Below, one piece after another: positions 19,311 to 55,982 of a DNA stretch of 64,000 nt. The position numbers were made by a program, and so were the translations under genes. Position 1 is the first letter of the stretch, and every line of letters begins with the position of its first letter. The notes beneath the pieces were generated by a model. The model did not search any database and was not told where the DNA came from. It saw nothing but the letters and a program-made list of their open reading frames with translations. The stretch lies in the NCBI GenBank assembly GCA_018402485.1, contig JAGYIY010000001.1:1-64000 (forward strand), in the 5' to 3' direction. Origin of the DNA: Roseivirga sp. (GTDB lineage Bacteria; Bacteroidota; Bacteroidia; Cytophagales; Cyclobacteriaceae).

Positions 19311-20183
19311 ATGAAGGCATACGTATTTTCAGGCCAAGGTGCACAGTTTCCTGGCATGGCCAAGGCCCTTTATGCAAACACACAAGCAGCTAGAGACCTT
19401 TTTGAACAAGCCAATGAAATCCTTGGCTTTCGCATTACAGACATTATGTTTGAGGGTACGGCAGAGGCTTTGCAGCAAACCAAAGTAACCCAGCCGGCCA
19501 TTTTTTTACATTCTGTTGTGCTTGCCAAAACTGCCGATGACTTTGCCCCCGACATGGTGGCAGGCCATTCCTTGGGTGAATTTTCTGCCTTGGTAGCCAA
19601 TCGTGTGCTGTCGTTTAAAGATGGTTTGCGCTTGGTGGCTCAGAGAGCAGATGCCATGCAGAAAGCCTGCGAAATTAACCCCTCTACCATGGCCGCGATC
19701 ATAGGCCTGGCAGATGAAGTGGTGGAAGAAATTTGCGATGCCATTGATGATGTGGTTGTGGCTGCAAATTACAATTGCCCGGGACAGTTGGTCATTTCCG
19801 GTTCAAAATCCGGCATTGCATTGGCCTGCGAAAAAGCCACGGAGGCCGGAGCACGCAGGGCCTTACCATTGCCTGTGGGGGGTGCTTTTCATTCCCCATT
19901 GATGGAACCCGCTCGTGTACAACTGGAAGCAGCCATTGATGCTACTACTTTCCACCAAGGCATTTGCCCGATTTACCAAAATGTAACAGCTCAGGCCGTT
20001 ACGGATAATGAGGCCATCAAGTCGAATTTAAAAATTCAGTTGACAGCGCCTGTCAAGTGGTCACAATCTGTGCAGCAAATGATTGCCGATGGCGCCACAC
20101 AATTTATTGAATGCGGACCCGGCAAGGTACTACAAGGTTTGGTCAAAAAGATAGACCGAAATATGGAAGTGGTGGGGGTGTAA
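19311..20183 (+). CDS. fabD: Malonyl-CoA:ACP transacylase
   Basis: 290 aa, the usual length. It opens with YVFSGQGAQFPGM, carries the nucleophile motif GHSLGE (Ser87) and the catalytic histidine in GGAFHSPLM (His194), and ends with FIECGPGKVLQGL. It loads malonyl groups onto acyl carrier protein for fatty acid synthesis. It is transcribed alone here. A diverged copy of its last 96 bp recurs at 22968-23063, showing that the accessory block was inserted or rearranged at this gene's 3' end. Confidence 0.97.
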   Translation: MKAYVFSGQGAQFPGMAKALYANTQAARDLFEQANEILGFRITDIMFEGTAEALQQTKVTQPAIFLHSVVLAKTADDFAPDMVAGHSLGEFSALVANRVLSFKDGLRLVAQRADAMQKACEINPSTMAAIIGLADEVVEEICDAIDDVVVAANYNCPGQLVISGSKSGIALACEKATEAGARRALPLPVGGAFHSPLMEPARVQLEAAIDATTFHQGICPIYQNVTAQAVTDNEAIKSNLKIQLTAPVKWSQSVQQMIADGATQFIECGPGKVLQGLVKKIDRNMEVVGV

Positions 20184-20338
20184 ATTCCACAAGCTATGTT
20201 AAGGAAGAACGATTCGCGCTTCAACAAATCTAAAAGCTGTTTGAGTTGATCATGCCTTCGCGCTCCTTCTTTATTTTTTGACCTGATAGACATCAAAGGT
20301 CAGGTAATCTTCATTTTTTGCATATGCTTCAAGATTGA

Positions 20339-20962
20339 CTAAATGCAGCCCTGTAGACCTCCGCTAAATACTGCTTTCATAAAATCATGTGACAACTTAG
20401 GCAACTCTCTATTGGGAACAAAGAATCGTGGGTTGCCCGATGAATCTTCATGATAATAAAAAGGGAATTTATACATGTTTGTAAAAAAACTATTGTAGTC
20501 ACTTTCTGCCAGCTGAATCACATTCAGATTACGGACAAAGTTTCTCCTAAAGAATTGAAAGTCTTTCTCGCTATTTGAGTGTCTTAAGATAGTAAATTCT
20601 GCTTCACTTACTTTTGCCAAACTATCTAAAAAAAATAGTTCATTTTCTACACATATACCACAATCACTATGACTGCTAACAAAATAAAATTGTTTTTTAT
20701 TCTCTGCCTTATTCCGTTCCAAACTCTTATTTAAATATAACTTAAAATTACAATTATTAATTCTCGTTATATTTACAATTGTTTTAGTTAATGATCTATT
20801 AATCCATTTGTTTTCAATTTCTATTTGATTAATTTTCTCAATACTTTTACCGATAATATAATTTTTTTCATTTAGTTTTTTCTGACTTATTAGCAAAAGA
20901 ATGATACTAACTGTGATTATTAGCAAAAGACATGCAATTAAAATCTCCCTTCTCTTAATCAT
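20339..20962 (-). CDS. Membrane-anchored thioredoxin-like protein with CGIC motif
   Basis: 207 aa. One N-terminal transmembrane segment (about residues 8-26), a lysine-rich linker, then a possible thioredoxin-like domain: KQFYFVSSHSDCGICVENELFFLDSL, where CGIC sits after a beta strand as in thioredoxin folds. No cis-Pro motif is obvious. The start ATG overlaps the stop of the propeller gene upstream by one base (TAATG), so it is coupled to it. Last gene of module 1. The CxxC lipoprotein at 57370-57819 holds the same place in module 5. A redox role in the envelope is inferred. Confidence 0.6.
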   Translation of the reverse strand: MIKRREILIACLLLIITVSIILLLISQKKLNEKNYIIGKSIEKINQIEIENKWINRSLTKTIVNITRINNCNFKLYLNKSLERNKAENKKQFYFVSSHSDCGICVENELFFLDSLAKVSEAEFTILRHSNSEKDFQFFRRNFVRNLNVIQLAESDYNSFFTNMYKFPFYYHEDSSGNPRFFVPNRELPKLSHDFMKAVFSGGLQGCI

Positions 20963-22173
20963 TAAAAACTCTTGTATTTGGTGAAAATTAATGTTGGGTT
21001 AGCTTCGTCTTTTATTAGAAGGGCACGATCATATAACTCTTTTGCAAGTGCTTTTTTAATTTTATCTTTATTTTCGTGAGTTTGTAGAGCTATCTGAATT
21101 GCAATAAGAATTTCACCTGAAATGGAGGTTATAAATTGATTGTTGTGCACTCCGATACTTATCCCACCTACTGCATTCCCTTGCGATTTTAAACTTTTAG
21201 CTGTAATATTTTTTCCTGTGTATTTTGAGTAAATGGTCGTAAAAAGATCTGTTCCCCTTGCGAAGTTCAAGACTATAGTACTATCGGTTTCAGAAAAAAA
21301 CTGCATACCCGCTACGATTTTTTTTTCTTCAGATAAAGATACCCATCTGCTCAGTTCTTTAGATTTTTTAGGTAGTGTTGATCTATCCTTCAAAGCCATA
21401 GCACCAAAATTCATATAGTACTTCCCGTACAACCTACCTTCACTTGTGATACCATAAATTGTATCGTTAAAAAGATGTGTTAAGCTTTTGGTTATTAAAT
21501 CGCCAGAAAACGGATTTTCGTACTCAATAAAAAGATTTCTTTCTCTTTTACTTACTGGTAAATATTGGGCAAAAACCTCTCCCAACTTATCAAAAATGTA
21601 GTAATTGCTACAATCATTTTTCCTGCCACACTGATTGTTAGCATAACCAATAAGAGTTGTGGAATCTAAATAACTAACTCTTTCAATCAACTGATTTTCA
21701 AATTTAGTGGTTGCGCCTGTGAATTGACCATTATTAATAGCATACCATAAAATTTCTGATCTTGTCAGAAGACCTATTTCCTCTGCTTTTTGATCTATTA
21801 AGATATCTACCAACTCTCTATACTCACCGGGGCCGCTTCCCAATGATCCTACTTTAAATAAATACTTTCCGTTCGTTCCAAAGCAAAAGACACTCTTGGC
21901 TTGAGACCTATCTAAGACAAATAAATAATTATTAAATATTAAAACCTTATCAATCTCACCTATTAAATTGTCTTCTGTCAATTCCAGATGAACATAATCA
22001 ACATGACTGATAATTTCTCTTGGATCATATTCTTTATATATTTCTTCGGACTTAATATCGATTGATTTAATACTATCATTATTGACATTATATATATATT
22101 TATTATTCACTTCTTGACTCGTGCAGGAAGTGAATAAAATCATTATAAAATAGCTAATGAATAAAGTCTCCAT
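20962..22173 (-). CDS. 6-bladed beta-propeller lipoprotein (module 1)
   Basis: About 403 aa from the ATG at 22173, chosen because it gives a proper lipoprotein signal (METLFISYFIMILFTSC, lipobox Cys at residue 17). The mature protein has the repeated strand patterns and the GSLGSGPGEYREL loop typical of the Bacteroidota 6-bladed beta-propeller family (DUF5128/NHL-like). Blades such as NNYLFVLDRSQAKSVFCFGTNGKYLFKV are visible. It sits between a small secreted peptide gene and a CxxC protein gene, like the propellers at 24.7, 28.9 and 56.2 kb. A ligand-binding or peptide-recognition role at the cell surface is inferred. Confidence 0.8.
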   Translation of the reverse strand: METLFISYFIMILFTSCTSQEVNNKYIYNVNNDSIKSIDIKSEEIYKEYDPREIISHVDYVHLELTEDNLIGEIDKVLIFNNYLFVLDRSQAKSVFCFGTNGKYLFKVGSLGSGPGEYRELVDILIDQKAEEIGLLTRSEILWYAINNGQFTGATTKFENQLIERVSYLDSTTLIGYANNQCGRKNDCSNYYIFDKLGEVFAQYLPVSKRERNLFIEYENPFSGDLITKSLTHLFNDTIYGITSEGRLYGKYYMNFGAMALKDRSTLPKKSKELSRWVSLSEEKKIVAGMQFFSETDSTIVLNFARGTDLFTTIYSKYTGKNITAKSLKSQGNAVGGISIGVHNNQFITSISGEILIAIQIALQTHENKDKIKKALAKELYDRALLIKDEANPTLIFTKYKSF

Positions 22174-22190
22174 TTTACACTCAAGCTTCC

Positions 22191-22436
22191 TTATTTTGGT
22201 TCGAAACGTTGCTGAGCGGTATCGCATTTGGAAAATAATGCAAACCCACATTTATACTGAATCCCTTGAAATCCGCTACTTGCCCCTATTTCCACTCCAG
22301 CTACTTTAACCGAAATACTTTTATCATACACCAGTTTTGACTTCATAGATGACCAATTTTTTTCTTCAGCTTCAACATTTAAAGTTATTAAACTAAGTAA
22401 TAAACAAACACTTAAAAGTTTTATTAATCTTTCCAT
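22191..22436 (-). CDS. Small secreted NVEALA-like peptide (module 1)
   Basis: 81 aa. A signal peptide (MERLIKLLSVCLLLSLITL) ends in NVEAEE, which matches the NVEALA leader motif of small Bacteroides peptides that neighbour propeller lipoproteins. The mature part is about 55 residues with two cysteines (YKCGFALFSKCD). It is the first gene downstream of leader repeat A, 17 bp ahead of the propeller gene. Function unknown. Confidence 0.7.
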   Translation of the reverse strand: MERLIKLLSVCLLLSLITLNVEAEEKNWSSMKSKLVYDKSISVKVAGVEIGASSGFQGIQYKCGFALFSKCDTAQQRFEPK

Positions 22437-22560
22437 TTTTCTTTTGTTTTAGTTAAAATTTAAACTCAAAGCCAATGCTTATCTAGGACCTTGTATTAGC
22501 TTCTTACTTGCAAGTATAATATTTACCAGTGCTGTAAATATGTCACCGAGTAATATTTTT
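22437..22560 (-). repeat. Leader repeat copy A
   Basis: The 82 bp next to the peptide gene (22437-22518) are nearly identical to copies B, C and D. Beyond that the sequence diverges but keeps a dyad, ATATTTAC (22519-22526) and GTAAATAT (22534-22541). The conserved minus-strand string TTGGCTTTGAGTTTAA lies just before the gene. It is the presumed promoter/leader of module 1. Confidence 0.8.
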
Positions 22561-22601
22561 TTTTATTTTTTCGGAAATGCCACTGCAATCATACATATCA
22601 T

Positions 22602-22787
22602 TCATGCTATAAGTATAAAGCCAAAAGAAAACTACACGTTTTCAGTATAGATATAGGAACCTATGGTAGGATCGTAATCAATTGGACCTCCATGGCTCTT
22701 CATATCATTTATTAAATGGTGTAAGTGCCGTATACAAATACCAAACCTTTTGGCACATTCTGCGGGGCTTTGTCAATTTCCCGTGCC
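22602..22787 (-). pseudogene. Decayed HTH regulator gene (module 1)
   Basis: One minus-strand frame reads GTGN-stop-QSPAECAKRFGICIRHL, continues to GPIDYDPTIGSYIYTENV, then a stop and FSFGF. This aligns along its length with the intact HTH proteins at 30480-30716 and 55145-55372 (TGSPKDCALRL...APIEYD...YTYEVEFVFGF). The start region is gone and two in-frame stops interrupt it. It lies directly upstream of leader repeat A, where intact modules have the HTH gene. Confidence 0.75.
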
Positions 22788-22937
22788 CTACCCCCACATA
22801 CCGGTAGGATTTACTTTTTATTCCACACGAGCAGCATAGAGTTATTCTTGTTTGGTAGGCATACTTTTCCAAACCCGTTTGGCATAAGTCTGGGCATCTC
22901 TGAGAGAAATTCTGGCCACTGGAAGTACAGCATAACA
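22788..22937 (-). pseudogene. Fragment resembling a formylglycine-generating-enzyme (SUMF1) domain
   Basis: In the same frame as the HTH remnant, LPVARISLRDAQTYAKRV continues to KSMPTKQE-stop-LYAARVE-stop. It recalls the FGE-sulfatase/SUMF1 consensus (P-V-x-V-S-x-x-D-A-x-x-Y-x-x-W ... R-L-P-T-E-A-E-W-E-Y-A-A-R). Three in-frame stops show it is dead. It lies between the HTH remnant and the fabD fragment, part of a patch of broken genes. Confidence 0.45.
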
Positions 22938-22967
22938 ATTTGTTGTTATTTTATTACTCCTATGATC

Positions 22968-23063
22968 ATGGCGCCGCACAATTTATTGAATGCGGACCCG
23001 GCAAGGTGCTACAAGGTTTGGTGAAAAAGATCGACCGAAATATGGAAGTGGCGGGGTTGTAAA
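22968..23063 (+). pseudogene. Duplicated 3' end of fabD
   Basis: These 96 bp match 20089-20184, the end of fabD including the stop codon, with six differences. Three differences are synonymous, and the translation still reads FIECGPGKVLQGLVKKID then NMEVAGL. Nothing of the upstream part of fabD is present. The pattern of differences looks like a coding allele from a relative, not a fresh copy. Confidence 0.9.
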
Positions 23064-23115
23064 ATCATCGTAAACTTTTATTTGAAGTTGGTTTAATAGT
23101 TAGTCTAATTAATAG

Positions 23116-23580
23116 CTAGTCCTCCTTTAACCTTATTCTAGCTAAGAGGTATTTACTTTTATGATCAATCTTTACAGTGGCATATGTTGACTTTAAAATT
23201 TTTAATTGTGCAAAAGCAACTTCTAAACTTAAGTAAGTAGTATCATTAGGAGATATTAAGTCATCTTCTAAAACAAATCCAGTGCAACTACAATGGGGAT
23301 TTACTTTGATTATGTTAACAGTCTTTGATGTTGAGTTAACTAATCCAAATTTAACATTTATCATCCCATCTTCGTCTGAGTGCTCCTCTGTCACCGTAAT
23401 CACTTTGTTATAAATATGGACTTCAGATTTTCCATTAGTTTGAAGTCCCCCCCCATCGTATCCCTTGTGCATGGAGGTAATCATAAAACTGAAGCCAATA
23501 ATAGCGGCTAGACTTGCCTGCTTCCGTTGAAGTCGGATCCGATGGTATAGATTTAAGCTTTTGAACATTGATGTTTTCAT
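23116..23580 (-). CDS. DUF1573 family protein (module 2)
   Basis: Up to 154 aa. The DUF1573 signature is present: VKFGLVNSTSKTVNIIKVNPHCSCTGFVLE, with the C-S-C-T pair at about residues 98-101, and a final Ig-like strand set. The longest frame begins inside the previous gene (146-bp overlap); an internal start with a hydrophobic leader (LAAIIGFSFMITSMHKG) is possible. The family consists of exported Ig-like proteins of unknown function. Last gene of module 2; a relative ends module 4. Confidence 0.75.
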   Translation of the reverse strand: MKTSMFKSLNLYHRIRLQRKQASLAAIIGFSFMITSMHKGYDGGGLQTNGKSEVHIYNKVITVTEEHSDEDGMINVKFGLVNSTSKTVNIIKVNPHCSCTGFVLEDDLISPNDTTYLSLEVAFAQLKILKSTYATVKIDHKSKYLLARIRLKED

Positions 23581-24700
23581 TTGAGTATTGATTTAACATT
23601 GAAAGCAAACCCATTTGCTTCCACTTTTCTGACTTATAATTCGGGATGTAGGAGCTTCGGGTGTAATCGAAAAAACTGGAGGTCTTCCCTTTGTTCCAGT
23701 TAATATCCCAAGCAGCATTCTTTTCCAAGAAAAACAATTCTGCCTTGAGCTTATGATTCGGCATGTCATCTTCCCAGCGTACCTGAGACATAAAATAATC
23801 GCTTTCGTCCCAAGCGAATTCCACTTCCATGTGCTTCTGGGAAGACCAAAATATGTTGGGCTGTCTAGGCCTAGGCAATTTCTTGGCTTCAATATGAGCT
23901 ATGCGCTGTTCAAGGGCATGTATTTGAATTATAAGGTCAACATCGCCTGTTAGATAAGCATAGCATTCATACGGACCGGTCGAGCATGCTTCCACAACAA
24001 CTAAATCTTTCAATTTTAAGTCGCTTACCATGAAAAGGAGGTCATTCAAATACCCATAATTTTCCATACCAATGATGGCACCAAATCCATAAGATTGACT
24101 GAAGTTATCGAATTTACTCGGAGCCTCCAGACTTTCGGCATGCCATTGCCGGTTGTGCTCTCCTACAAACCCATTTAGGCCATTCTGAAACCACTCAAAT
24201 TGCTTTTTGCTTCTGTCCACCAGCTCTTTGTACAAATACACGCCAAAATAATCCGCACTATAGATTTCGCTACCACTTTCCTTTTGAAAGCCCAGTGCCT
24301 TATAGTAGGCCTTTGTAACAGAAGGTGTTTTCATCGTTTCCTTCAAAACATCAAAGGCATTGGTAACCATCACTTTTTCGTCCATCGGGTTGACCTCAAA
24401 ATCACCCAAATCGTAGATCTTTGCTTTTAAAGTAACTTTATGTGATTCTCCAGCTTGATAGCTCAGGACAAAAGTTTCGTAGCCTATATGCGATATGGCT
24501 ACCTTACCCGAAGCCATATTGCCGGGTAAATGAAATACCCCATGCTGATCGGCTACAAATAACAGTCCCTCCTCTTTTAATACACGTAAATGACTAAAGC
24601 CTAAGGGATCGCCATTTTCATTTTGAACCCTAATCTCCTGTCCTTGAAGGGCAAAAAGACTGCCAAGAAAAATAGTAATTCCATACAATATCCCTTTCAT
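23435..24700 (-). CDS. Carboxypeptidase-regulatory-like domain protein (module 2)
   Basis: 421 aa with a signal peptide (MKGILYGITIFLGSLFALQGQ). Residues about 21-95 are a CarboxypepD_reg-like beta-sandwich (IRVQNENGDPLGFSHLRVLKEEGLLFVADQHGVFHLP ... HIGYET), a domain common in Bacteroidota TonB-linked outer membrane proteins. The remaining 320 residues are not recognised. Its ATG overlaps the propeller gene's stop (ATGA), and its last 146 bp overlap the DUF1573 frame, so the natural C-terminus may be earlier. Probably periplasmic or outer membrane-associated. Confidence 0.7.
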   Translation of the reverse strand: MKGILYGITIFLGSLFALQGQEIRVQNENGDPLGFSHLRVLKEEGLLFVADQHGVFHLPGNMASGKVAISHIGYETFVLSYQAGESHKVTLKAKIYDLGDFEVNPMDEKVMVTNAFDVLKETMKTPSVTKAYYKALGFQKESGSEIYSADYFGVYLYKELVDRSKKQFEWFQNGLNGFVGEHNRQWHAESLEAPSKFDNFSQSYGFGAIIGMENYGYLNDLLFMVSDLKLKDLVVVEACSTGPYECYAYLTGDVDLIIQIHALEQRIAHIEAKKLPRPRQPNIFWSSQKHMEVEFAWDESDYFMSQVRWEDDMPNHKLKAELFFLEKNAAWDINWNKGKTSSFFDYTRSSYIPNYKSEKWKQMGLLSMLNQYSNENINVQKLKSIPSDPTSTEAGKSSRYYWLQFYDYLHAQGIRWGGTSN

Positions 24701-25836
24701 AGATCATCCCATTTAAACCGATATACCCATAACTCTTCGCTTCCCTCATTCACGGCACCATCTGCGTAAACATATGCCCCCAGTTTACCGATTACGCGGA
24801 ATCTTTTCGGTACCTGAACATCGTGTGTTAACACCTTGTCCTCATAGATTTGCATGCGTGTAGGTCCGTCCGTCCCTTGCGGATGATACACCCTAAACAC
24901 ATGGTCTTGATGCGCATAAACACTTGCATAGAAACTTTGATCGGCTACATCTGTTCGCCAGTTCTCAATCGCTTCCTCTATGCCACGTGTGGTGCGATAA
25001 TTGACATCAAAGCCTTGACCGCCTACCCCAAAGCGTTCCATCAATTGCAAATTTTGATCATACACATACATAAGCGAATCAATATGAAATGAAACAAGCA
25101 AATGCTCATTGTAAGCAGCTACATCTATTCCTGCGAGGTTGGGGATAAATGAAAAGTCTTGATAGGCCTCTGACCATTTCCCTCCTATTTGAACCAGTTT
25201 ACCATCTGCAATGCGGAACTTACCTAGCACATAGGTTTCCTCATAAAAACGCTCATGTTGAAAAGCATTCATTCTAGGGTGTTCTGTAATGATGGGTACA
25301 AAAAGATAGTCATTCAAATGAGCAGTGAAATTGGTTTGAATATTCGGGCTCCAGTCAATGGTGTAAATTCCTTTTTGTTCGCCATCAGGATTATTCATCA
25401 GTTCTTCTGTAGGTGTGAAATTGTCCCAATCATATAACTTAAAATAGGTTTTGATAGAATCGTTTTGAAATTGATGATAACCAAAGTTATCAATCACCAA
25501 ATAATTGGAACCTTCCAAATCCACCGTATAGTGCACATTATCAACCTCGTGAGGACCCGAACCACGACCCAAATGGACACCTTTAACCATTAAATCTGTA
25601 TCCAAATAATTTATGGTTTGAAAAATCTGATCCGAAAATACTAAACCACCATTTAATAAGGCAAATCGACCTACACCTGAATAAGAATTTAAATTAATTG
25701 ATACACTATCTAACAAAAGTTGATTAGTAACATTATCTAATTTAGCACTAGTAGTAGGGAAATTTCTTATGTCATATCTATGATCATTACAGCTAATTAA
25801 AATTATGATATATAAAATGATATATATATATTTCAT
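24697..25836 (-). CDS. 6-bladed beta-propeller lipoprotein (module 2)
   Basis: 379 aa. The signal MKYIYIILYIIILISC has a lipobox Cys at residue 16. The mature part shows propeller-type repeats (INYLDTDLMVKGVHLGRGSGPHEVDNVHY, LVIDNFGYHQFQNDS) with the GRGSGPHEV loop equivalent to GRGPGEY of the family. It lies 51 bp after the Cys-rich peptide gene and is coupled by ATGA to the next gene. It is the module 2 counterpart of 20962-22173 and 28885-30027. Confidence 0.82.
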   Translation of the reverse strand: MKYIYIILYIIILISCNDHRYDIRNFPTTSAKLDNVTNQLLLDSVSINLNSYSGVGRFALLNGGLVFSDQIFQTINYLDTDLMVKGVHLGRGSGPHEVDNVHYTVDLEGSNYLVIDNFGYHQFQNDSIKTYFKLYDWDNFTPTEELMNNPDGEQKGIYTIDWSPNIQTNFTAHLNDYLFVPIITEHPRMNAFQHERFYEETYVLGKFRIADGKLVQIGGKWSEAYQDFSFIPNLAGIDVAAYNEHLLVSFHIDSLMYVYDQNLQLMERFGVGGQGFDVNYRTTRGIEEAIENWRTDVADQSFYASVYAHQDHVFRVYHPQGTDGPTRMQIYEDKVLTHDVQVPKRFRVIGKLGAYVYADGAVNEGSEELWVYRFKWDDL

Positions 25837-25887
25837 TGAATTAATAAATTAAATATTGAGGAGAAATATTATCCTCCTCAATATAAA

Positions 25888-26127
25888 TTACAAATCACCA
25901 TTATGGCAATTTGATACAAACTCAGAGCAAAGCGTTACCGTACCATCTGGTTCAACACCCGATTGACCACACCTGGCTCTAAAGGAAATAGCATTACCTC
26001 CAAAACAACCTCCATATTTACATCGACAAATGGTTTCTGTCGGATGAGGGGGAGGGTCTATTGTTTGGGATTGAATTGTAAGACTACCAAAAATAGTCAG
26101 AACTAGAATCAAGACATTCTTTTTCAT
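25888..26127 (-). CDS. Small secreted six-cysteine peptide (module 2)
   Basis: 79 aa. A signal peptide (MKKNVLILVLTIFGSLTIQSQ) is followed by a proline-rich stretch (TIDPPPHPTET) and a mature domain with six cysteines (ICRCKYGGC ... RC ... LC ... NC). The CxC-x-x-x-x-GC start resembles that of the module 4 peptide (TCYCDTEIAGC). It is the first gene after leader repeat B. Even number of cysteines and signal peptide suggest disulfide-bonded export. Function unknown. Confidence 0.75.
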   Translation of the reverse strand: MKKNVLILVLTIFGSLTIQSQTIDPPPHPTETICRCKYGGCFGGNAISFRARCGQSGVEPDGTVTLCSEFVSNCHNGDL

Positions 26128-26137
26128 ATTAATTTTA

Positions 26138-26434
26138 TTTTAGTTAAAATTTAAACTCAAAGCCAATGCTTATCTAGGACCTTGTATTAGCTTCTTACAT
26201 GCAAGTATAAGGTGAGGTTGTGTCATAAAATGTCACTGGCACATTTTTTTTTAAAATAAAATTTAAATCTTAGCTTTAGATATCTCAAATTTTCACTATT
26301 TATAACACTCCCCTTCCCAATTGAAATGACAACTGAGCTTATTTCATATTTCATTGAAAGCTTGGCAAGTCTATGCTGATTTTTGAATGCTTAAACGGCT
26401 ACTTTAGCCTTAAAGGCCGGAGAAAATTTACGTC
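26138..26434 (-). repeat. Leader repeat copy B (about 295 bp)
   Basis: Nearly identical to copy C at 28165-28465 over about 290 bp (a 7-bp indel and a few substitutions) and to copies A and D over their shorter lengths. It contains a near-perfect dyad GTGTCAT-AAA-ATGTCAC (26220-26236; one mismatched central pair per arm), the string TATACTTG on the minus strand (close to TAnnTTTG), TTGGCTTTGAGTT near the gene, and a small hairpin GGCTA-CTT-TAGCC (26397-26409). Confidence 0.9.
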
Positions 26435-26543
26435 TTGTTCGCTTCTTCATAAGGTTAAATTTAAATGGTTTTTTTTAACTTAACCTTTGGTCTCAATTTA
26501 GGGGAGTATTATATTGCGAATTTGACAGTTCCTTGTAACTCAT

Positions 26544-27002
26544 TTATAAAACCGTCAGCTTGTAGGAAATAAATAAAACTAAATAAAGAATCAAGTTATA
26601 CAGCGCGTGCAAACCTGAAGTAAACCAAAATGCCTTGGACAATGATTTGGCACAATAAGTATTGATGAAAAGCATAACCAAAACAAACCCCTTCAGAGCG
26701 CTAAAGATTACTTGGTGTAGGCTATCCATATGTGTTAAACCAAAAATTAAACCGGATAAAAATATAAGTAACAATAGATGCCACTGATTAGGCTTTTTAA
26801 TCAAAAAGAAAAAAATCCTCACCGGAATAAATTGAAAAACAAATGTTTCTAATAATGGCGCCAATAAAATAGCATCAATAAAGAGTTCCCACCAATTTAT
26901 AACCTCCGGTTCACTAGGATGGCCATCAAAGAAGAGGGAGCATACCGTTATACCCAAAAGCAACAAAAAGGATTTCCAAAAATTAAAAAACGATAGATTC
27001 AT
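26544..27002 (-). CDS. CPBP (CAAX-type) family intramembrane protease
   Basis: 152 aa with about four to five membrane segments. The three CPBP motifs can be placed: APLLETFVFQ (usual EExxxR, here E-T and Q), FGLTHMDS (the F-x-x-x-H motif) and SGLHALYN (HxxxN). The family includes prenyl-protein proteases and proteins used for bacteriocin maturation or self-immunity. The catalytic Glu and both His are kept, the second Glu and Arg are replaced. It is the third gene of module 3, after a lipoprotein with a bacteriocin-like tail and a small membrane protein; maturation or immunity is inferred. Confidence 0.75.
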   Translation of the reverse strand: MNLSFFNFWKSFLLLLGITVCSLFFDGHPSEPEVINWWELFIDAILLAPLLETFVFQFIPVRIFFFLIKKPNQWHLLLLIFLSGLIFGLTHMDSLHQVIFSALKGFVLVMLFINTYCAKSLSKAFWFTSGLHALYNLILYLVLFISYKLTVL

Positions 27003-27214
27003 TTTATGGAAAAGCTCTACTCAAATTAAAACTAATCTAAATTCAACCAATTGATCATCCCGCGATGATCCGAAATTTGAGCTTGTGAACTGCAGTGAAA
27101 ATCACGACAATACTCAGACCACCTAACCTCTTCTGCCGGTTCAACCTTAATTCATCTCATGATTTGAATCGTTACTAAAATCAAAAGGGTCAAATTCATA
27201 AGAATATTACCAAA

Positions 27215-27466
27215 TTAATTTAATAAATATTTATTTTTGTATATATTTTTAATTTTATACCTAAGATATATGCATTTTATTGACATTATAAATATTATAG
27301 TGTTTATGCCTAAAGGTATATAGAGAACTACATAGTAATCAAACCAGATAAGCTGATTTCTCATTAAAGCAAAGAGAATAAAACTAATCAGAATCAAAAA
27401 ATTAGTCATGTTTAAACATTGATTCAATTTTTGATTGAAGGTTCTTGAACTTTTCATTTCTCTCAT
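27215..27466 (-). CDS. Small two-TM membrane protein (83 aa, module 3)
   Basis: Two hydrophobic segments (about 20-38 and 44-66) flanked by basic ends (RTFNQKLNQ, and YLRYKIKNIYKNKY at the C-terminus). It starts 1 bp after the stop of the lipoprotein gene, so the two are tightly linked. No domain is recognised. Size and position would fit an immunity protein for the upstream product, but this is inference only. Confidence 0.55.
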   Translation of the reverse strand: MREMKSSRTFNQKLNQCLNMTNFLILISFILFALMRNQLIWFDYYVVLYIPLGINTIIFIMSIKCIYLRYKIKNIYKNKYLLN

Positions 27467-27467
27467 C

Positions 27468-28166
27468 CTAGTAAATGCAATTTACAAATTCATAAATCAT
27501 AATATCAACCCCGATCCATCCTAGATACCTTTTCCCAATATGCTTCAGAGCCCCTATCATGGTTTCTATACTCGCAGCTGCGAGATTGTTTTGAATGATC
27601 GCCTGTATTGAGCTTATCCCAACAGCAGCCGATGCACATGAAATCATTCTATCCCAGTCTATTTCTTGAATTTGATTTGAGTAATAGCCAGTATTCAAAG
27701 GTTCTAAATTTTTATTTTGGTTTGAATAATAAGATATGCTGAATAGAAAAGAAAGTTCCACGAGTTGTGTACCGCTTAGCTGATAAATTTCATCATATAA
27801 CTCCTCTTTTTCATTCTCAGGCAAGCCTTCAAAAAGTTGAGAATTAAAAATTGAGGATTTCATTTCGTTGAAAATTATTTGACCATTTTCCACCAATGGA
27901 GTTAAAATTTCTAAAATTTCTTTCTCATTAATTTCAACACCTGATTGAATAGAGTTCAAATCTTTCACATCATAATAGTTTCGCAAGTTGTCAAGTACTG
28001 AGATCAGAACTTGTTTATCTAATACATATTTGCTTAGATCAATATCCGTTTTAAATGGTCCCTCTGGTATAGCAGTTTCCTGACAGGATGCAACAACAAG
28101 GAGTAATCCAATAAATGATACTTTTATCGCATAATTAATAATAGTTCCATTTAATGCCCTTTTGAT
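27468..28166 (-). CDS. Lipoprotein with hydrophobic bacteriocin-like C-terminus; start codon appears mutated to ATC
   Basis: The frame is open to an ATC codon at 28166-28164, exactly where the sibling leaders (30321, 22436) have ATG after the same AAAACAAAAGAAAA string. From ATC it encodes a lipoprotein signal (IKVSFIGLLLVVASC, lipobox Cys28) and about 232 aa in all. The last 60 residues are small, hydrophobic and end ALKHIGKRYLGWIGVDIMIYEFVNC, a pattern seen at the C-terminus of several small exported Bacteroidota proteins and reminiscent of membrane-active peptides. An internal TTG (27986) would lose the signal. The gene is either dead or uses a non-canonical start. Confidence 0.6.
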   Translation of the reverse strand: MKRALNGTIINYAIKVSFIGLLLVVASCQETAIPEGPFKTDIDLSKYVLDKQVLISVLDNLRNYYDVKDLNSIQSGVEINEKEILEILTPLVENGQIIFNEMKSSIFNSQLFEGLPENEKEELYDEIYQLSGTQLVELSFLFSISYYSNQNKNLEPLNTGYYSNQIQEIDWDRMISCASAAVGISSIQAIIQNNLAAASIETMIGALKHIGKRYLGWIGVDIMIYEFVNCIY

Positions 28167-28465
28167 TTTTCTTTTGTTTTAATTAAAATTTAAACTCATA
28201 GCCAATGCTTATCTAGGACCTTGTATTCGCTTCTTACATGCAAGTATAAGGTGAGGTTGTGTCATAAAATGTCACTGGCACATTTTTTTTTAAAATAAAA
28301 TTTAAACCTTAGCTTTAGATATCTCAAATTTTCACTATTTATAACACTCCCCTTCCCAATTGAAATGACAACTGATCTTATTTCATTGAAAGCTTGGCAA
28401 GTCTATGCTGATTTTTGATTGCTTAAACGGCTACTTTAGCCTTTTAGAACAGAGAAGATTTACGT
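28165..28465 (-). repeat. Leader repeat copy C (about 290 bp)
   Basis: Same element as copy B over its full length, including the dyad GTGTCAT-AAA-ATGTCAC at 28259-28275 and the GGCTA-CTT-TAGCC hairpin. It directly precedes the lipoprotein gene of module 3. The few differences from B suggest recent duplication. Confidence 0.9.
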
Positions 28466-28542
28466 TTTATTTAATTATTTATATAATTATTTTAAATATT
28501 ATTTTTTTTTTATTTTATACAATTCAAGTTTACAATTAAAAA

Positions 28543-28884
28543 TTAATTTACTTTGATTGATACCTTAGCTAACTTAAAATCAGCATTAGTTTTAAGAACA
28601 GCATAAACTTCTTTGACATTACGTAATTGTTCATTGGTAGTTTCAAGTGTAATGAGACCTGTATCTAATGGAGAAATTAACTGATCATATGTCACAGAAG
28701 TACACGAACATGAGGATTTAACAGATTCAATAACTAACTCAGAAGATCCCATATTTACAATCTTAAAGTCATGCCTAATCTTACTCGGTAAGTTCATAAG
28801 TTCATCTAATGGAACAACATGCCTGGGATCAATGATTTTGAATTTAACATTACTGTATAATAGTATAAATATTATTAATATATA
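28543..28884 (-). CDS. DUF1573 family protein without canonical start (module 4)
   Basis: The first ATG (28797) gives only 84 aa, beginning mid-domain. The frame is open a further 29 codons to the TGA of the propeller gene and would add a membrane segment (YILIIFILLYSNVKFKIID), which suits an exported protein. An ATG overlapping that TGA (ATGA) is in another frame that stops after 12 codons, so one small frameshift would restore a coupled full-length gene. The DUF1573 signature SSCSCTSVTYDQLISPLD is clear. Probably frameshifted or using a rare start codon. Confidence 0.6.
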   Translation of the reverse strand, partial: YILIIFILLYSNVKFKIIDPRHVVPLDELMNLPSKIRHDFKIVNMGSSELVIESVKSSCSCTSVTYDQLISPLDTGLITLETTNEQLRNVKEVYAVLKTNADFKLAKVSIKVN

Positions 28885-30027
28885 TCATTTTATATTCAAT
28901 TTAAATTTGTAAAAACCTAATTGATCTTCTTCCTCATTAAGTATCCCATCAGCATAATAAAAGCCGTTATGGTAACCAATTACATTGAATTTATGAACTG
29001 TATTGAACTGAGCTACTAAATCCTTATTTCGATAAATCTGAACACCTCCTTTATTCGATTCACGGTCTGTTATAAATGACCTAAACATTAAATTATTCAT
29101 GCTATCATAGTAGAGATGTGAATAGAACCCATTTTTAAAACTATCGTAAGGTGTCTCTTCAAACGAAATGAAATTCTTTATCTCTGAATTGATAGTTGCT
29201 TCTTTCTGGCCAAATTCATAAATAAGATCATTTTCAGGAAATGGGCTATAAACCTGTATTTTAAACGATCCTTTATAACCCACGAAAATGCTATCAGCTT
29301 TTAGTGTTATAAATCGGTCATCGTAGTGCTCCCAGCGATGATCTCTATATTCCGATGGAAAATTACCAAATACGGTTTCTAGTTTTCCGGAATTAATGTT
29401 GATCCTACCAATGGATGCTGCATCGTTATAATAACCATCAGTAGCGAGATTATAACTTGGATTAACCCGTGGCAATATCCTAACCGGTACATAAATATTT
29501 TGATTTCTGTCAATCGAAAGGTTTTTGGAAGTCAACACATTGAAAACTATATCCATGTCATAGGTACCCACTTCCACTTCTTTTTTTCCGTCATACCTTT
29601 CTTTTGTCCTGGGTACAACGTACATAAAGTCTTCCTCTCTTTCAAATTCATCTGTAAATACATGAATATCGCTTGCCCGACCCATGAAAATATGCTTGCT
29701 CCCAAGGCGTCCGTGCCAAACAAACTCTTGTCTTATCTCGCTGGGGCTATCACCCAAACCTAAATAAGTTTTTAAAACCTCTCCATTCTGACTGATTTTA
29801 TTAGCACTGGAAAAAATAGGATCAAAGTAGTAAACCCATTCATTCTCGATTCTAAAAAAGCCATTCTCAGAAAACGACGGCAGTTGAACATAAACCGTAT
29901 CCATTTCAGCAAGTTGGTACTCCATGCTAATACTACCGAAGTCTAGTTCTTGCTCTTTACGATTCTGACAGGCATTTATGAAGACCGTGAGAATTAAAAG
30001 TAAATGAAATAAGTTACTCTTTTTCAT
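28885..30027 (-). CDS. 6-bladed beta-propeller lipoprotein (module 4)
   Basis: 380 aa. The signal MKKSNLFHLLLILTVFINAC has a lipobox Cys at residue 20. The mature part carries propeller blades (FRIENEWVYYFDPIFSSANKISQNGEVLKTYLGLGDSPSEIRQEF; SIFVGYKGSFKIQVYSPFPENDLIYEFG), and GLGDSPSEI takes the place of the family's GxGPGEY loop. It lies 66 bp after the Cys-rich peptide gene and runs straight into the DUF1573 gene. Outer membrane or periplasmic location is expected; ligand unknown. Confidence 0.82.
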   Translation of the reverse strand: MKKSNLFHLLLILTVFINACQNRKEQELDFGSISMEYQLAEMDTVYVQLPSFSENGFFRIENEWVYYFDPIFSSANKISQNGEVLKTYLGLGDSPSEIRQEFVWHGRLGSKHIFMGRASDIHVFTDEFEREEDFMYVVPRTKERYDGKKEVEVGTYDMDIVFNVLTSKNLSIDRNQNIYVPVRILPRVNPSYNLATDGYYNDAASIGRININSGKLETVFGNFPSEYRDHRWEHYDDRFITLKADSIFVGYKGSFKIQVYSPFPENDLIYEFGQKEATINSEIKNFISFEETPYDSFKNGFYSHLYYDSMNNLMFRSFITDRESNKGGVQIYRNKDLVAQFNTVHKFNVIGYHNGFYYADGILNEEEDQLGFYKFKLNIK

Positions 30028-30093
30028 AAGTATTATTTTATGTCAGAAAAGAATCATGCCGTACAATATAAACTTGCACGGCATGAAATTTGA

Positions 30094-30321
30094 TCATTGA
30101 ATATTCATAATGGTTTTCGGTAAGCATTTCCCGCCTTTACAGTTTTTCCTTTTACTGCAATCCATTCCACCTCGACCATTATGCCAACAACCAGCAATTT
30201 CAGTGTCGCAATAACAGGTTGGACCAAAATATTCTTCTGTCTCAGCATTTACACTAGAACCGCCAAAACTTACGGACGCTATAAATAAGAGCATCACACA
30301 CAGGTTTCTTAAACTTTTCAT
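30094..30321 (-). CDS. Small secreted six-cysteine NVEALA-like peptide (module 4)
   Basis: 75 aa. The signal peptide ends in SSVNAETEE, close to the NVEALA-type leader end. The mature ~46 residues contain six cysteines (TCYCDTEIAGC ... MDC ... NC ... GKC) with glycine-rich spacing (WHNGRGGMD) and a basic character. It follows leader repeat D and precedes the propeller gene. It resembles the module 2 peptide in its first three cysteines. Function unknown. Confidence 0.75.
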   Translation of the reverse strand: MKSLRNLCVMLLFIASVSFGGSSVNAETEEYFGPTCYCDTEIAGCWHNGRGGMDCSKRKNCKGGKCLPKTIMNIQ

Positions 30322-30487
30322 TTTTCTTTTGTTTTAGTCAAAATTTAAACTCAAAGCCAATGCTTATCTAGGACCTTGTATTCGCTTCTTAAGGGCAAGT
30401 ATAAGGTGAGGTTGTGTCATAAAATGTCACTGCCACATTTTTTTAAAAAAATAAAATTTAAACCTTAGCCTTAGATATCTCAAATTT
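30322..30487 (-). repeat. Leader repeat copy D
   Basis: About 160 bp matching copies A-C, with the dyad GTGTCAT-AAA-ATGTCAC at 30414-30430. It fills the whole gap between an intact HTH regulator gene and the peptide gene and overlaps the last codons of the HTH gene, which suggests the repeat is the natural HTH-to-peptide spacer. Confidence 0.9.
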
Positions 30488-30716
30488 TGTTGATTGGCCT
30501 AAATCCAAAGAAACATTCTATTTCATAAGCATAAACAAATGATCTTCTGACTTGATCATAAATAATGGGCGCACCTAAATTTCTCATCTCATCAAATATG
30601 CGGTATAACTGCCTCTTACTTACCCCAACCTTTCTGGAACACTCTTCCGCATTTCCTGTACCCTTTCTTCTGATCATGGCATCTAGCCTTTCCATACGTT
30701 GGATTTTTTCTCTCAT
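30480..30716 (-). CDS. Small HTH DNA-binding protein (module 4 regulator)
   Basis: 78 aa, all-cytoplasmic. The sequence IQRMERLDAMIRRKGTGNAEECSRKVGVSKRQLYRIFDEMRNLG is a winged-HTH-like unit of the HTH_11 type, followed by APIIYDQ...SFVYAYEIECFFGF, probably the wing. The plus-strand protein at 55145-55372 is a clear paralogue at the same relative position, and a decayed third copy lies at 22602-22787. It probably binds the dyad in the leader repeat immediately downstream and controls the peptide/propeller genes (inference). Confidence 0.8.
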   Translation of the reverse strand: MREKIQRMERLDAMIRRKGTGNAEECSRKVGVSKRQLYRIFDEMRNLGAPIIYDQVRRSFVYAYEIECFFGFRPINKI

Positions 30717-31074
30717 GGTACTTCATTTAAGTGTTACATATACAGTATGTCATTGATGTTTAGGCAAAGGATTTTCGACTGTTATGAGGTTGTAAACATC
30801 AGGCGCATACTCATTCTTAAGGTGCATCTACCGCTAGAAGCTACCTATATTCTAAAATACTAAAGCACAATATATGCTCATTCACATACGTAATATACAT
30901 ATTATTTATTCTTTTAAACAAATTTTATTGAGCCACTTTTGATAATAACCATTATCAAAAATTCTTTTAGGTCTTTTCAAAAAATATGAAAATAGAGGAA
31001 ATCCGTGCCCTGAAGAAGGTTTTCCAGACATACTGTCCCAAAACATCTTCATGAACAAAAAATGTTAATGATAA
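30717..31074. other. Intergenic region, no gene seen
   Basis: 358 bp of AT-rich DNA marking the right edge of the accessory block. I see no coding frame, repeat or clear promoter. It must contain the promoter of the HTH gene. Confidence 0.4.
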
Positions 31075-31701
31075 CTAAACCTCGAAGCCGGCAAAAACGA
31101 AAGAAAATAAACGAATGCTAAAAAGAATCAGCGCAAGACCTACCACTCGGTTCATGATTTTCATAAATCTCACCGTCACCAAATCGCGTAACTTGCCTGC
31201 ATAATGCGATTTTAAAACATCGCAAATGAATACGGTAGCCATCAAAACACTGAAAAACAGGATCAGATCATTGTCCTGATAGCCATAGCTGAGGTTGACC
31301 TTGCTGATAATACCTAACCAAAACAAAAAAACAAAAGGATTGATGGCATTCAACAAAAATCCCTTGAGCACTTGGCGAATCCCTTTGGTTTGATGCGCTG
31401 CCAATTGCACTACCTTCTGCCTTGGGACAGGTTTCAGTAAGTAATAGGCACCAAAGGCCAACATGATCAGACCGCCTACTCCCCCCATCCATTTCTGAAA
31501 ATTTTCATCTTTCAAAAAGGAAGATACGCCTAAAGATATGACTAGAATATAGATGATATCGCTCAGGGAAATGCCAATGGCCATGAAAAAACCTGCCCAA
31601 AACCCTTTCTCAATGGCATTATGCAGTAAAGCAAAAAAAACAGGCCCGATGAGAATGCACAGCAAAAGCCCAAATAAAAAGCCATTCCAAATTACTTCCA
31701 T
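31075..31701 (-). CDS. LysE/RhtB family amino-acid exporter
   Basis: 208 aa with six hydrophobic segments. The family start WNGFLFGLLLCILIGPVFFALLHNAIEKGFWAGFFMAIGISLSDIIYIL matches LysE translocators, with GPVFF and a charged loop between helices, and FLLNAINPFVFLFWLGI in the middle. It exports amino acids or related metabolites across the inner membrane; substrate unknown. It follows the GH3-type gene by only 3 bp, so they are likely one transcript. Confidence 0.85.
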   Translation of the reverse strand: MEVIWNGFLFGLLLCILIGPVFFALLHNAIEKGFWAGFFMAIGISLSDIIYILVISLGVSSFLKDENFQKWMGGVGGLIMLAFGAYYLLKPVPRQKVVQLAAHQTKGIRQVLKGFLLNAINPFVFLFWLGIISKVNLSYGYQDNDLILFFSVLMATVFICDVLKSHYAGKLRDLVTVRFMKIMNRVVGLALILFSIRLFSFVFAGFEV

Positions 31702-49518: not shown

Positions 49519-50253
49519 ATGAGTAACACAGTTATTAAAACCAGCGATATTTCTAAAACTTATGTAATGGGCAGCGAGACCATTCAGGCCTTGAAGTCCA
49601 TTACCATCTCCATTGAGCAAGGTGAATATGTCTCTTTTATGGGACCTTCCGGTTCGGGGAAATCTACATTGATGAATATGATTGGTTGTTTAGATACACC
49701 CTCCGGAGGACAGTACATATTAAACGGTCATGATGTAAGTGATATGACGGAAAATGAACTAGCAGATATACGCAACAAAGAAATTGGATTTGTTTTCCAG
49801 ACTTTCAACCTATTGCCCCGTGCTAGTTCTATGGAAAATGTTGCTTTGCCCTTAATTTATGCGGGTTACAGTAAATCTGAAAGAGAAGAAAGAGCTTTAA
49901 AAGCTTTAGAAAATGTAGGTTTGAAGGATCGAGCTTATCACAAACCTAATGAACTTTCTGGTGGACAAAGGCAGCGCGTCGCAATCGCCAGAGCTTTGGT
50001 GAATGATCCGTCGATTATTTTAGCCGATGAACCTACAGGTAACTTAGATTCTAAAACTTCTTATGACATCATGGATCTTTTTGCTCAGCTGCATGATAAA
50101 GGCAATACCATCATTATGGTAACACACGAAGATGACATTGCGCAATATTCACACAGAATTCTACGATTAAGGGATGGCTTGGTTGAAAAAGACGAGGTGA
50201 ATCACAATCCTACCAAAGTCGATCGAAAGCAAATAGTTGTTACAGAGGATTAA
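49519..50253 (+). CDS. ABC transporter ATP-binding protein (LolD/MacB type)
   Basis: 244 aa. Walker [10 protein letters not shown] (42-50), Q-loop [10 protein letters not shown], signature [15 protein letters not shown] (145-159) and Walker [13 protein letters not shown] (about 165-176). The [21 protein letters not shown] segment is typical of MacB/LolD ATPases. No permease is adjacent, so partners lie elsewhere. The stop overlaps the PduO-type gene's start by one base. Confidence 0.93.
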
Positions 50254-55144: not shown

Positions 55145-55372
55145 ATGCTTAAGCAAATTCAAAGAATAGAAAGACTGCATCAACTCATAAAGCTAAGAGC
55201 TACTGGCTCACCTAAAGATTGTGCTTTAAGATTAAATATAAGCGAAAGACAGTTCTATAATATTTTAGAACTAATGAAAGACTTAGACGCACCCATTGAA
55301 TATGATTCAACCTTCTGTTCTTATTTTTACACATATGAAGTGGAATTCGTTTTTGGTTTTTCTGTAAAATGA
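55145..55372 (+). CDS. Small HTH DNA-binding protein (module 5 regulator)
   Basis: 75 aa: IQRIERLHQLIKLRATGSPKDCALRLNISERQFYNILELMKDLDAPIEYD, then YFYTYEVEFVFGF. It is a paralogue of the 30480-30716 protein throughout. HTH_11-type fold, no extra effector domain. It begins module 5 and probably controls the peptide genes 170 bp downstream through the dyad at 55436-55456 (inference). Confidence 0.8.
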   Translation: MLKQIQRIERLHQLIKLRATGSPKDCALRLNISERQFYNILELMKDLDAPIEYDSTFCSYFYTYEVEFVFGFSVK

Positions 55373-55544
55373 ATCAATACTTAAATATACAATACCAGTC
55401 ATCTAAATAGGTTAATTAATTTTAGATTTTTTATCAACTGAAATTTTATTTCAGTTATTACGATGTAATTGCATATAGGAACTAACATAACATCTAAATT
55501 AAGTGTTGGTTTTGAGTTCAATATTAAAATAAACTAATGGAACA
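55373..55544 (+). promoter_or_regulatory. Leader of module 5 with perfect 9-3-9 dyad
   Basis: The 172-bp spacer between the HTH and first peptide genes holds a perfect inverted repeat AACTGAAAT-TTT-ATTTCAGTT (55436-55456) and a second ATTAC-GAT-GTAAT (55457-55469). Near its end TTGGTTTTGAGTT is shared with the minus-strand leaders A-D (TTGGCTTTGAGTT). It is a likely promoter/operator region. Confidence 0.6.
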
Positions 55545-55757
55545 ATGAAAAAGAATAAATTTAATTTTTTAATTACTCTCATAGCTATAACAGCCTTGAG
55601 TCATAAGGTTTATTCAGGAACCTGTTTAGTTGATACTAACCCAGCGAAGAACAAAGGTTATTGTGTTGAGGGCGTTGATGGTAAAGGTAAGTGCATCATT
55701 CTGGAGGTGGAAGATGCTGATGCGTGTAGTTCTAGTGAACCATTAATTATAAAATAA
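55545..55757 (+). CDS. Small secreted four-cysteine peptide 1 (module 5)
   Basis: 70 aa. The signal peptide MKKNKFNFLITLIAITALSHKVYS is followed by a mature ~46 residues beginning GTCLVDTNPAKNKGYC. Four cysteines follow the pattern C-x(n)-NKGxC-x(8-9)-GKC-x(n)-C shared by the next two genes. Acidic C-terminus (EVEDADAC). First of three tandem paralogues; function unknown. Confidence 0.75.
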   Translation: MKKNKFNFLITLIAITALSHKVYSGTCLVDTNPAKNKGYCVEGVDGKGKCIILEVEDADACSSSEPLIIK

Positions 55758-55759
55758 GA

Positions 55760-55978
55760 ATGGCCATGAGAATAATGAAAAGTATATTGACAGTCATGGT
55801 TTTAAGTGGGATATTATTAAACCATGTGGATGCAGGTTTTTGTCTACAAAAGCCTTCAGATAATACTGGATGGTGTGCAGAAGATATAGAGGGTAGAGGT
55901 GTGTGCATTATATTTAAACCATCTAATGACTCAACGAGGTGTTTTGCAGATCAACCTGATAATCAAACAATTGAATAA
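55760..55978 (+). CDS. Small secreted four-cysteine peptide 2 (module 5)
   Basis: Up to 72 aa; the ATG at 55760 is 2 bp after the previous stop, and an ATG at 55775 (MKSILTVMVLSG) would also give a signal peptide. The leader ends in NHVDAGF, recalling NVEALA. The mature pattern GFCLQKPSDNTGWCAEDIEGRGVCII matches peptide 1. Its last codons end 4 bp before peptide 3. Confidence 0.72.
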   Translation: MAMRIMKSILTVMVLSGILLNHVDAGFCLQKPSDNTGWCAEDIEGRGVCIIFKPSNDSTRCFADQPDNQTIE

Positions 55979-55982
55979 AATT

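Follow-up and report, generated by a model that had tools for sequence, protein, structure and literature searches.

The NVEALA proteins of Bacteroidota (PF14055) are small, Sec-secreted, and cysteine containing. Bacteroidetocins, from the same phylum, are related to class IIa bacteriocins and served by a C39-type exporter; excerpts of their description show a small four-cysteine peptide accompanied by a dedicated thiol oxidoreductase and one more membrane protein and state that the producers are not self-immune (PMC6671954), and therefore a locus with a thiol protein and a Cys-containing peptide need not encode immunity. Excerpts on two toxins of Bacteroidales place an immunity gene just downstream of the toxin gene, namely, BcpI next to BcpT, a predicted surface lipoprotein (PMC9308784), and RFab1 next to Fab1, a secreted protoxin (PMC8406203). 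The Cdz system of Caulobacter, as excerpted, combines surface-associated glycine-zipper proteins with a small three-transmembrane (TM) immunity protein and type I secretion (PMC5380434), and a Bacteroidales cluster for a ribosomally synthesized and posttranslationally modified peptide includes a helix-turn-helix (HTH) gene, which the excerpt mentions without detail (PMC10352776). We present here an analysis of five gene cassettes in a 64,000-nucleotide stretch of DNA from Roseivirga sp., a marine bacterium, referred to as the window (GenBank assembly GCA_018402485.1, contig JAGYIY010000001.1, positions 1 to 64,000), from a genome of 2.57 Mb that is 84.6% complete. Cassettes M1 to M4 lie on the minus strand within positions 20339 to 30716, and M5 lies on the plus strand at 55145 to 57819. 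All five had been proposed in an original prediction made from the DNA letters, and each is present at these positions.

We regard these modules, with a probability of roughly 0.55, as bacteriocin-type antagonism cassettes that would export their payload by Sec or as lipoproteins and not through a C39-peptidase ATP-binding cassette (ABC) exporter. Contact, signaling, and antagonism had all been considered in the original prediction; antagonism is favored because the HTH family of the modules often belongs with C39 bacteriocin exporters. Operon conservation, regulator kinship, a shared leader and palindrome, and payload exchange carry this reading, and from the sequence we infer toxicity, immunity, oxidation, and regulation.

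Comparison with described systems

A relative (G007; L and G numbers denote loci and genomes) has, at a third chromosomal site (L071), an operon with a window-type leader that encodes a four-cysteine double-glycine (GG) peptide, a carboxypeptidase-regulatory-like protein, an apparent membrane protein, a thioredoxin-like protein, and a C39 exporter. The peptide, thiol protein, membrane protein, and exporter resemble those of bacteroidetocin loci. The window modules, in contrast, rely on a Sec signal peptide and include a propeller lipoprotein but no exporter. The proposal that the thiol protein handles the disulfides of the peptide fits, by analogy, the bacteroidetocin loci as excerpted (PMC6671954). 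BcpT and Fab1, each with a downstream immunity gene, resemble our lipoprotein and small-TM payloads in arrangement, the one property compared; the window payloads differ in sharing an HTH-linked leader. Like Cdz, a second cassette cluster of the window genome (cluster 2, L019) has a protein with a glycine-rich hydrophobic C terminus and a small TM neighbor (L019:9872-10615), which bears a lipoprotein signal where Cdz uses type I secretion. The parallel to class IIb two-peptide bacteriocins (lactococcin G/enterocin 1071) comes from Roseivirga seohaensis, in which an HTH of this family also occupies the ispD-queA site; the window-genome cluster at that site differs in having no visible double-glycine peptide and no exporter.

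The window peptides are small, Sec secreted, and cysteine containing, as NVEALA proteins are, but have no Pfam match. The NVEALA label that they had been given was therefore dropped: PF14055 scored above its cutoff in 0 of 198 phylum genomes and matched no window peptide. A literature search of titles and abstract beginnings, which covered few subscription papers and no preprints, returned no description of these modules or of a double-glycine-tailed regulator, and no function in print for the DUF5128 and DUF4221 propeller lipoproteins, which are numerous in the genus.

The HTH family and C39 exporters

A search with the window HTH detected relatives in 23 of 59 near genomes (its own included), and an 11-row HTH profile found relatives in 41 of 395 phylum genomes. 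Fifty-eight HTH loci outside the window genome were analyzed with larger flanks, leaving out G037 and 13 weak hits that fell mostly in open reading frames (ORFs) of 200 to 400 amino acids (aa). A full-length C39-peptidase ABC exporter, defined as at least 600 aa by an in-house profile within 8 kb, lies near the HTH gene in 33 of the 58 (14 of 28 loci from the window-HTH search alone and 19 of 30 found otherwise). The 62 control loci yielded one 304-aa ABC hit and zero full-length exporters, in 389 kb with shorter flanks versus 958 kb. The R. seohaensis exporter scores above the cutoffs of TIGR01193 (bacteriocin_ABC, peptide cleavage and export) and Peptidase_C39, and one of the GG peptides of this locus is similar to lactococcin G-beta/enterocin 1071B (4.4e-6, which does not reach the cutoff of that model). 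An Rce1-like CPBP gene follows in this locus; the CPBP protein of M3 is its homolog (2e-12 in a single comparison). Among the fetched loci, a biased set, all three matches to the M3 protein outside its own genome are in exporter loci.

Beyond the wing, the HTH proteins of 27 of the 58 loci extend into a tail that contains a GG motif; the one of R. seohaensis (L068:4841-5170) has 109 aa and the motif INGG. Double-glycine leaders typically have D or E at position -8, a hydrophobic residue at -7, and I, V, L, or A at -4. Position -4 of the tails is I, V, L, or A in 27 of 27 cases (background, 0.35 for ILVMFA), position -8 is D or E in 21 of 27 (background, 0.12), and position -7 is mixed; 11 to 31 residues follow the GG in 26 tails and zero in one. 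An exporter accompanies 22 of the 27 GG-tailed HTHs, and the others (L187, L188, L190, L193, and L090) include contig ends and broken exporters. Among the 31 tails without GG, 11 have an exporter (four with an AG variant) and 20 have neither (Fisher test for GG tail versus exporter, p = 5e-4). The GG-tailed regulators are possible exporter substrates, going by these motifs. All HTHs of the window genome are tailless.

A structure model of the L085 homolog contains a winged helix in which residues 11 to 70 have block predicted local distance difference test (pLDDT) values of 81 to 92, and its tail is of low confidence from residue 74. Its nearest Foldseek matches are the winged helices of NiaR, IclR, BirA, and TM1602, none with an E value of 1e-3 or less. 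From this one homolog, the family is assigned a winged-helix DNA-binding fold. At L202 and L206, HTH relatives adjoin proteins of 532 to 533 aa that look by eye like C39/VKOR proteins, one of them with a Cys-rich GG peptide.

Leaders, dyads, and palindrome

The three other clustered leaders of the window and the three leaders of cluster 2 are 86 to 95% identical to the M1 leader, and the M5 leader is a diverged relative of this type. An alignment of nine leaders (the seven close copies, M5, and Roseivirga echinicomitans) has 36 invariant columns. The M3 frame has no ATG, GTG, or TTG where the eight other aligned leaders carry ATG, and the M3 cassette may be decaying, judging from this frame. 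The L071 leader aligns with that of M4 across the dyad, the TATACTTG box, the untranslated region (UTR) element, and the start, with a score of 100 compared to a maximum of 36 in 200 shuffles. The elements of the M4 leader would have a promoter role.

A palindrome close to CACTGCAATTTTATTTCAGTG lies 3′ of the HTH gene in six loci with three payload types: exporter operons (G016, G002, and L071), a lipoprotein (G001), and peptide-propeller-CxxC operons (M5 and L084). When each site was scored with the other five, it ranked first in its own locus in 6 of 6 cases. The exact pattern, which was built from these sites, has three matches in 19 genus genomes, all just after an HTH gene. Control by a local HTH protein, as originally proposed, would fit the palindrome common to the six loci and the shared leader. 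In further searches, dyads scored by inverted repeat alone had p values of >0.03 in 26 of the 35 rows (the other nine include two duplicates), the UTR element exceeded shuffles only in L071 and G014 among 10 downstream regions tested as a mark of all HTH loci, and no Rfam model matched at its gathering threshold in window positions 20000 to 31200.

Peptides, propellers, and CxxC proteins

Modules M1, M2, M4, and M5 have the order leader, Sec-signal Cys peptide(s), propeller-type lipoprotein, and CxxC or DUF1573 protein. The composition predicted for these four stands, with a carboxypeptidase-regulatory-like gene inserted in M2; M3 instead carries a lipoprotein, a small TM protein, and a CPBP protein. 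The HTH gene given for the modules was borne out in part. Within this incomplete genome, HTH genes are full length and stop free only in M4, M5, and cluster 2, and all that lies near M1 is a remnant with three stops (22614 to 22790).

Propellers were surveyed in 65 loci with 1.5-kb flanks (35 DUF5128 and 30 DUF4221, own genome included; 63 countable), taken from the DUF5128 hits of the window genome and the genus and the best DUF4221 hits of relatives. Secreted peptides were called by a simple signal-peptide rule derived from 14 peptides and had at least two cysteines within 400 nt upstream. Such a peptide precedes 19 of 63 propellers (7 of 33 DUF5128 and 12 of 30 DUF4221). Of these 19 loci, L219 looks spurious, L099 contains a training peptide, and L023 and L229 are from the window genome; M1 itself (L022) is not among them. 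The rule matched before 0 of 22 other ORFs in propeller loci and before 10 of 387 ORFs of at least 250 aa in HTH loci, and among those 10 are supported propellers in L062 and L194 (two), a propeller-like gene in L084, and two more ORFs in L194. The gene downstream of 16 of 63 propellers is coupled and encodes a small CxxC membrane protein or lipoprotein (four of the 16 are in the window genome, including M1 and cluster 2); the same was seen for 1 of 65 other ORFs in propeller loci and 1 of 405 control ORFs (L084). Peptide and CxxC gene go together (10 of 17 versus 6 of 46, p = 5e-4, with L219 dropped as peptide bearing). The peptide-propeller-CxxC operon is real and is confined to a subset of propellers; its gene order, for which the original prediction had suggested a survey, stands well above chance across the genus and its relatives.

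By Pfam cutoffs, the M1 propeller belongs to DUF5128 (PF17170, 6.3e-36) and the M5 propeller to DUF4221 (PF13970, 1.6e-13). Those of M2 and M4 have no Pfam propeller hit and match an in-house DUF4221 profile weakly (M4, 4.8e-7; M2, 3.3e-5; hhalign, 97%). Peptides of different modules are hardly alignable, and the three of M5 are mutually related. The CxxC proteins of the modules share the CxxC and an invariant downstream proline in eight sequences, with DsbC as the best PDB match (0.024); among those scanned, only the L071 exporter-operon protein passed PF13098 (2.8e-6). At L025:126-814 (G000:C10), a DUF5128 propeller is followed by three secreted peptides that are paralogs and share a CCPTxSGA motif, and L194 (G242) has at least three peptide-propeller units near one HTH gene, between genes resembling resistance-nodulation-division efflux genes. 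Tandem arrays of propeller lipoproteins occur between housekeeping genes in L123 (G014) and L126 (G002), with no peptides seen; they could be stores of orphan immunity proteins or receptors.

Payload exchange at chromosomal sites

Between ispD and queA, G006 (R. seohaensis) and G007 carry HlyD, an exporter, an HTH gene, and GG peptides, and G006 also carries a SUMF1 gene and a DUF5128 propeller; the window genome has lipoprotein and peptide cassettes instead. At a glycosyltransferase site, G016 (Roseivirga thermotolerans) and G002 have an HTH gene, Cys-containing peptides with GG or GS leaders, and an exporter, and G001 has an HTH gene and an M3-family lipoprotein. Locus L084, on a 3.2-kb contig of a metagenome-assembled genome, has an HTH gene, a Cys peptide, a propeller-like lipoprotein, and a CxxC protein with an ATGA overlap, and its glycosyltransferase fragment is 89% identical to that of G016. 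Further HTH-peptide-propeller loci occur in R. echinicomitans (G014, L062), where the propeller is a DUF5128 protein, and G242 (L194). HTHs of one family, as assigned by similarity, sit with exchangeable payloads at two Roseivirga chromosomal sites.

Cluster 2, which lies between ispD and queA, contains three of the leader copies (G000:C1:1462762-1467430) and two lipoprotein and small-TM payloads (L019 9872-10854 and 14425-15269). A DUF5128 propeller, a CxxC lipoprotein, and a peptide accompanied by a propeller-like gene are also encoded there. It also has four SUMF1-like genes or fragments (L019:13647-17768), one fused to an HTH remnant; the one scanned matched FGE-sulfatase (1e-36). In R. 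seohaensis, a SUMF1-like gene (L068:7782-8525) precedes the propeller at the same site. A small TM gene directly follows 5 of 7 lipoprotein payload genes. In a search of 195 genomes, the C-terminal domain of the M3 lipoprotein was found in three, the window genome among them and all of the same genus; it was also considered as a part of GG peptides, zero of which matched.

At the lysE site of the window cluster (M1 to M4), fabD was not found in the short flanks of 18 same-genus relatives, and no HTH or propeller was found by profile in these flanks (two of them incomplete), so this cluster appears to be peculiar to the window genome. Parts of both clusters are flanked by duplicated host-gene ends, from the 3′ end of fabD (94%, 96 nt) and the 5′ end of ispD (91%, 127 nt) (window 22968-23063 and 20089-20187; L019:19628-19754), which look as if pieces had been inserted at gene ends. 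Island integration at fabD and ispD was considered as a possible mechanism; no integrase was recognized among the listed ORFs, and no copies were found at ispD in G006 or G007. Remnants of IS3-type OrfA lie directly 5′ of leaders or peptides at window 26360-26440 and 28400-28460 and L019:10919-11050; the last matches HTH_Tnp_1 (5.5e-6), and those of the window were assigned by similarity.

Annotated features

The features of the window modules are listed in Table 1. The carboxypeptidase-regulatory-like protein was discarded as a link between M2 and the exporter operons, since the similarity is weak, and was not used as evidence.

Table 1. Predicted features of modules M1 to M5, with window positions
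Feature	Positions	Strand	Remarks
M4 HTH regulator (78 aa, no tail), winged-helix family linked to C39 exporters	30480-30716	-	
M4 leader	30337-30434	-	dyad GTGACATTTTATGACAC 30414-30430; TATACTTG box 30396-30403; conserved UTR element TTGGCTTTGAGTTTAAATTTTGAC 30337-30360
M4 Sec-signal Cys-rich peptide, 6 Cys	30094-30321	-	
M4 lipoprotein, putative distant DUF4221 propeller relative	28885-30027	-	
M4 DUF1573 protein, short, called without a signal peptide	28543-28797	-	7e-11
M3 lipoprotein payload, hydrophobic C-terminal domain	27468-28163	-	
M3 small membrane protein, candidate immunity	27215-27466	-	homolog adjoins same-family lipoprotein in G001
M3 Rce1-like CPBP protein	26544-27002	-	homologous to CPBP of C39 bacteriocin operon
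M2 Sec-signal Cys-rich peptide, 6 Cys	25888-26127	-	leader immediately 5′
M2 lipoprotein, putative distant DUF4221 propeller relative	24697-25836	-	
M2 carboxypeptidase-regulatory-like protein	23435-24700	-	weak match; ATGA overlap with propeller gene
M2 DUF1573 frame	23116-23580	-	start uncertain
M1 leader	22437-22555	-	
M1 Sec-signal peptide, 2 Cys	22191-22436	-	
M1 DUF5128 propeller lipoprotein	20962-22173	-	ORF open to 22251
M1 CxxC membrane protein	20339-20962	-	1-nt overlap with propeller gene
SUMF1-like gene joined to type B HTH remnant	22600-22970	-	aligns with equivalent junction in cluster 2
M5 HTH regulator	55145-55372	+	
M5 palindrome AACTGAAATTTTATTTCAGTT	55436-55456	+	common to sites after HTH genes in relatives
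M5 Sec-signal 4-Cys peptides (three)	55545-55757, 55760-55978, 55977-56198	+	
M5 DUF4221 propeller lipoprotein	56226-57389	+	
M5 CxxC lipoprotein, thioredoxin-like pattern	57370-57819	+	overlaps propeller gene end

Discussion

As antagonism cassettes, the modules would work as follows. The small winged-helix HTH protein would bind the dyad just 5′ of the conserved leader and switch the cassette. One payload type would consist of Cys-rich peptides that are exported by Sec and oxidized by the CxxC or DUF1573 protein of the same cassette; the cognate partner of the peptide would be the propeller lipoprotein, most likely its immunity protein or receptor. The other would be a lipoprotein whose C-terminal domain is hydrophobic or glycine rich, and the small membrane protein or the CPBP protein would provide immunity. 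The peptide or lipoprotein domain would act on competitors, and the propeller, small TM protein, or CPBP protein would shield the producer. No C39 exporter was found in the window or L019, the regions searched, and the sole ABC hit of the window is a 244-aa ATP-binding protein (49519-50253). No double-glycine leader was found on the window payloads, which bear Sec or lipoprotein signals. What the window modules have in common with double-glycine operons is the regulator family and the leader, which is not a formal class criterion.

A wider and more tentative proposal, doubtful as a whole, is that one bacteriocin regulator family serves two export economies. The exporter would clip its own GG-tailed regulator or free the tail as a pheromone, and the tail would have been lost where the payload moved to Sec or lipoprotein export; clipping could tie payload expression to export capacity. 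Cys peptide, propeller, and CxxC protein would then form a new antagonism class of Bacteroidota, with propellers as immunity proteins and arrays as orphan stores.

Several findings weigh against an antagonistic role. Without a GG leader and an exporter, the window modules fail the definition of class II bacteriocins. The HTH profile favors exporter loci, since it was built partly from them; 20 of 58 HTH loci have neither an exporter nor a GG tail, and the genes after several distant HTH relatives encode long proteins instead of peptides. A stop codon interrupts the HTH frame of L071. The palindrome sites were first chosen by eye through locus comparison, before scoring, and allowing up to two mismatches gave 39 matches versus 30 for the reversed control, which is near background. 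Scored as this palindrome, the type A dyad (M2, M3, and M4) ranks 5 to 7 in the window, and the type B dyad (M1 and cluster 2) is unlike it, at rank 25,867 of 127,956. By rule, 44 of 63 propellers have no peptide, and some stand in tandem arrays; propellers therefore also serve in other contexts. The propeller assignment in L084 is weak (0.085), and sequence ties the CxxC family weakly to thioredoxins. The distances of peptides and propellers correlate over 26 modules (Mantel r = 0.42, p = 2e-4) and over 16 DUF4221-type modules (r = 0.42, p = 0.003), and the latter value falls to 0.08 (p = 0.22) once L229 of the close pair L228/L229 is dropped. Peptide-propeller coevolution was not retained, because the significance of the 16 pairs hinged on that one pair. 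The structure model of the M4 propeller is unusable (pLDDT, 37.5), and with neither result in its favor, the earlier claim that the propeller recognizes or processes the peptide was not upheld.

The main rival, which we consider unlikely, is peptide signaling, in which the Cys peptide would be a pheromone that the propeller receives or processes at the surface and the HTH protein would be the response regulator; the HTH would then be common to C39 loci because bacteriocins are quorum controlled. Co-encoding of HTH, peptide, and surface lipoprotein speaks for signaling, as do the GG tails, which could release short peptides, and the three related peptides of M5. Yet we recognized no membrane signaling protein in the modules that would join propeller to HTH, peptides of different modules hardly align, and the lipoprotein and small-TM payloads under the same leader resemble toxin-immunity pairs.

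The abundance of propellers, often peptide free and sometimes in tandem arrays, would also suit an envelope or nutrient role, in which the Cys peptides bind a metal or ligand, the propeller is a general ligand-binding surface protein, and the HTH is merely recruited. That role is rather improbable given that modules replace exporter operons at the same sites and that their leader is common with a GG-peptide operon. A selfish or neutral expansion, in which insertion sequence-mediated and homologous recombination multiplied leader repeats and cassettes with no common function, would account for the copies of host-gene ends, the cassettes in decay, and the remnants of IS3-type OrfA. Neutral repeats would not, however, keep leader elements, palindrome, and gene order recurring across species, and such an expansion is very improbable.

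Through the regulator, the antagonism reading gives a testable function to a subset of propellers and to secreted Cys peptides. If it is true, a Sec/lipoprotein branch is added to the bacteriocins of Bacteroidota, and cleavage of the regulator's double-glycine tail, should it occur, would couple an exporter to transcription in an unusual way. The cassettes suggest an unrecognized variety of bacterial warfare genes.

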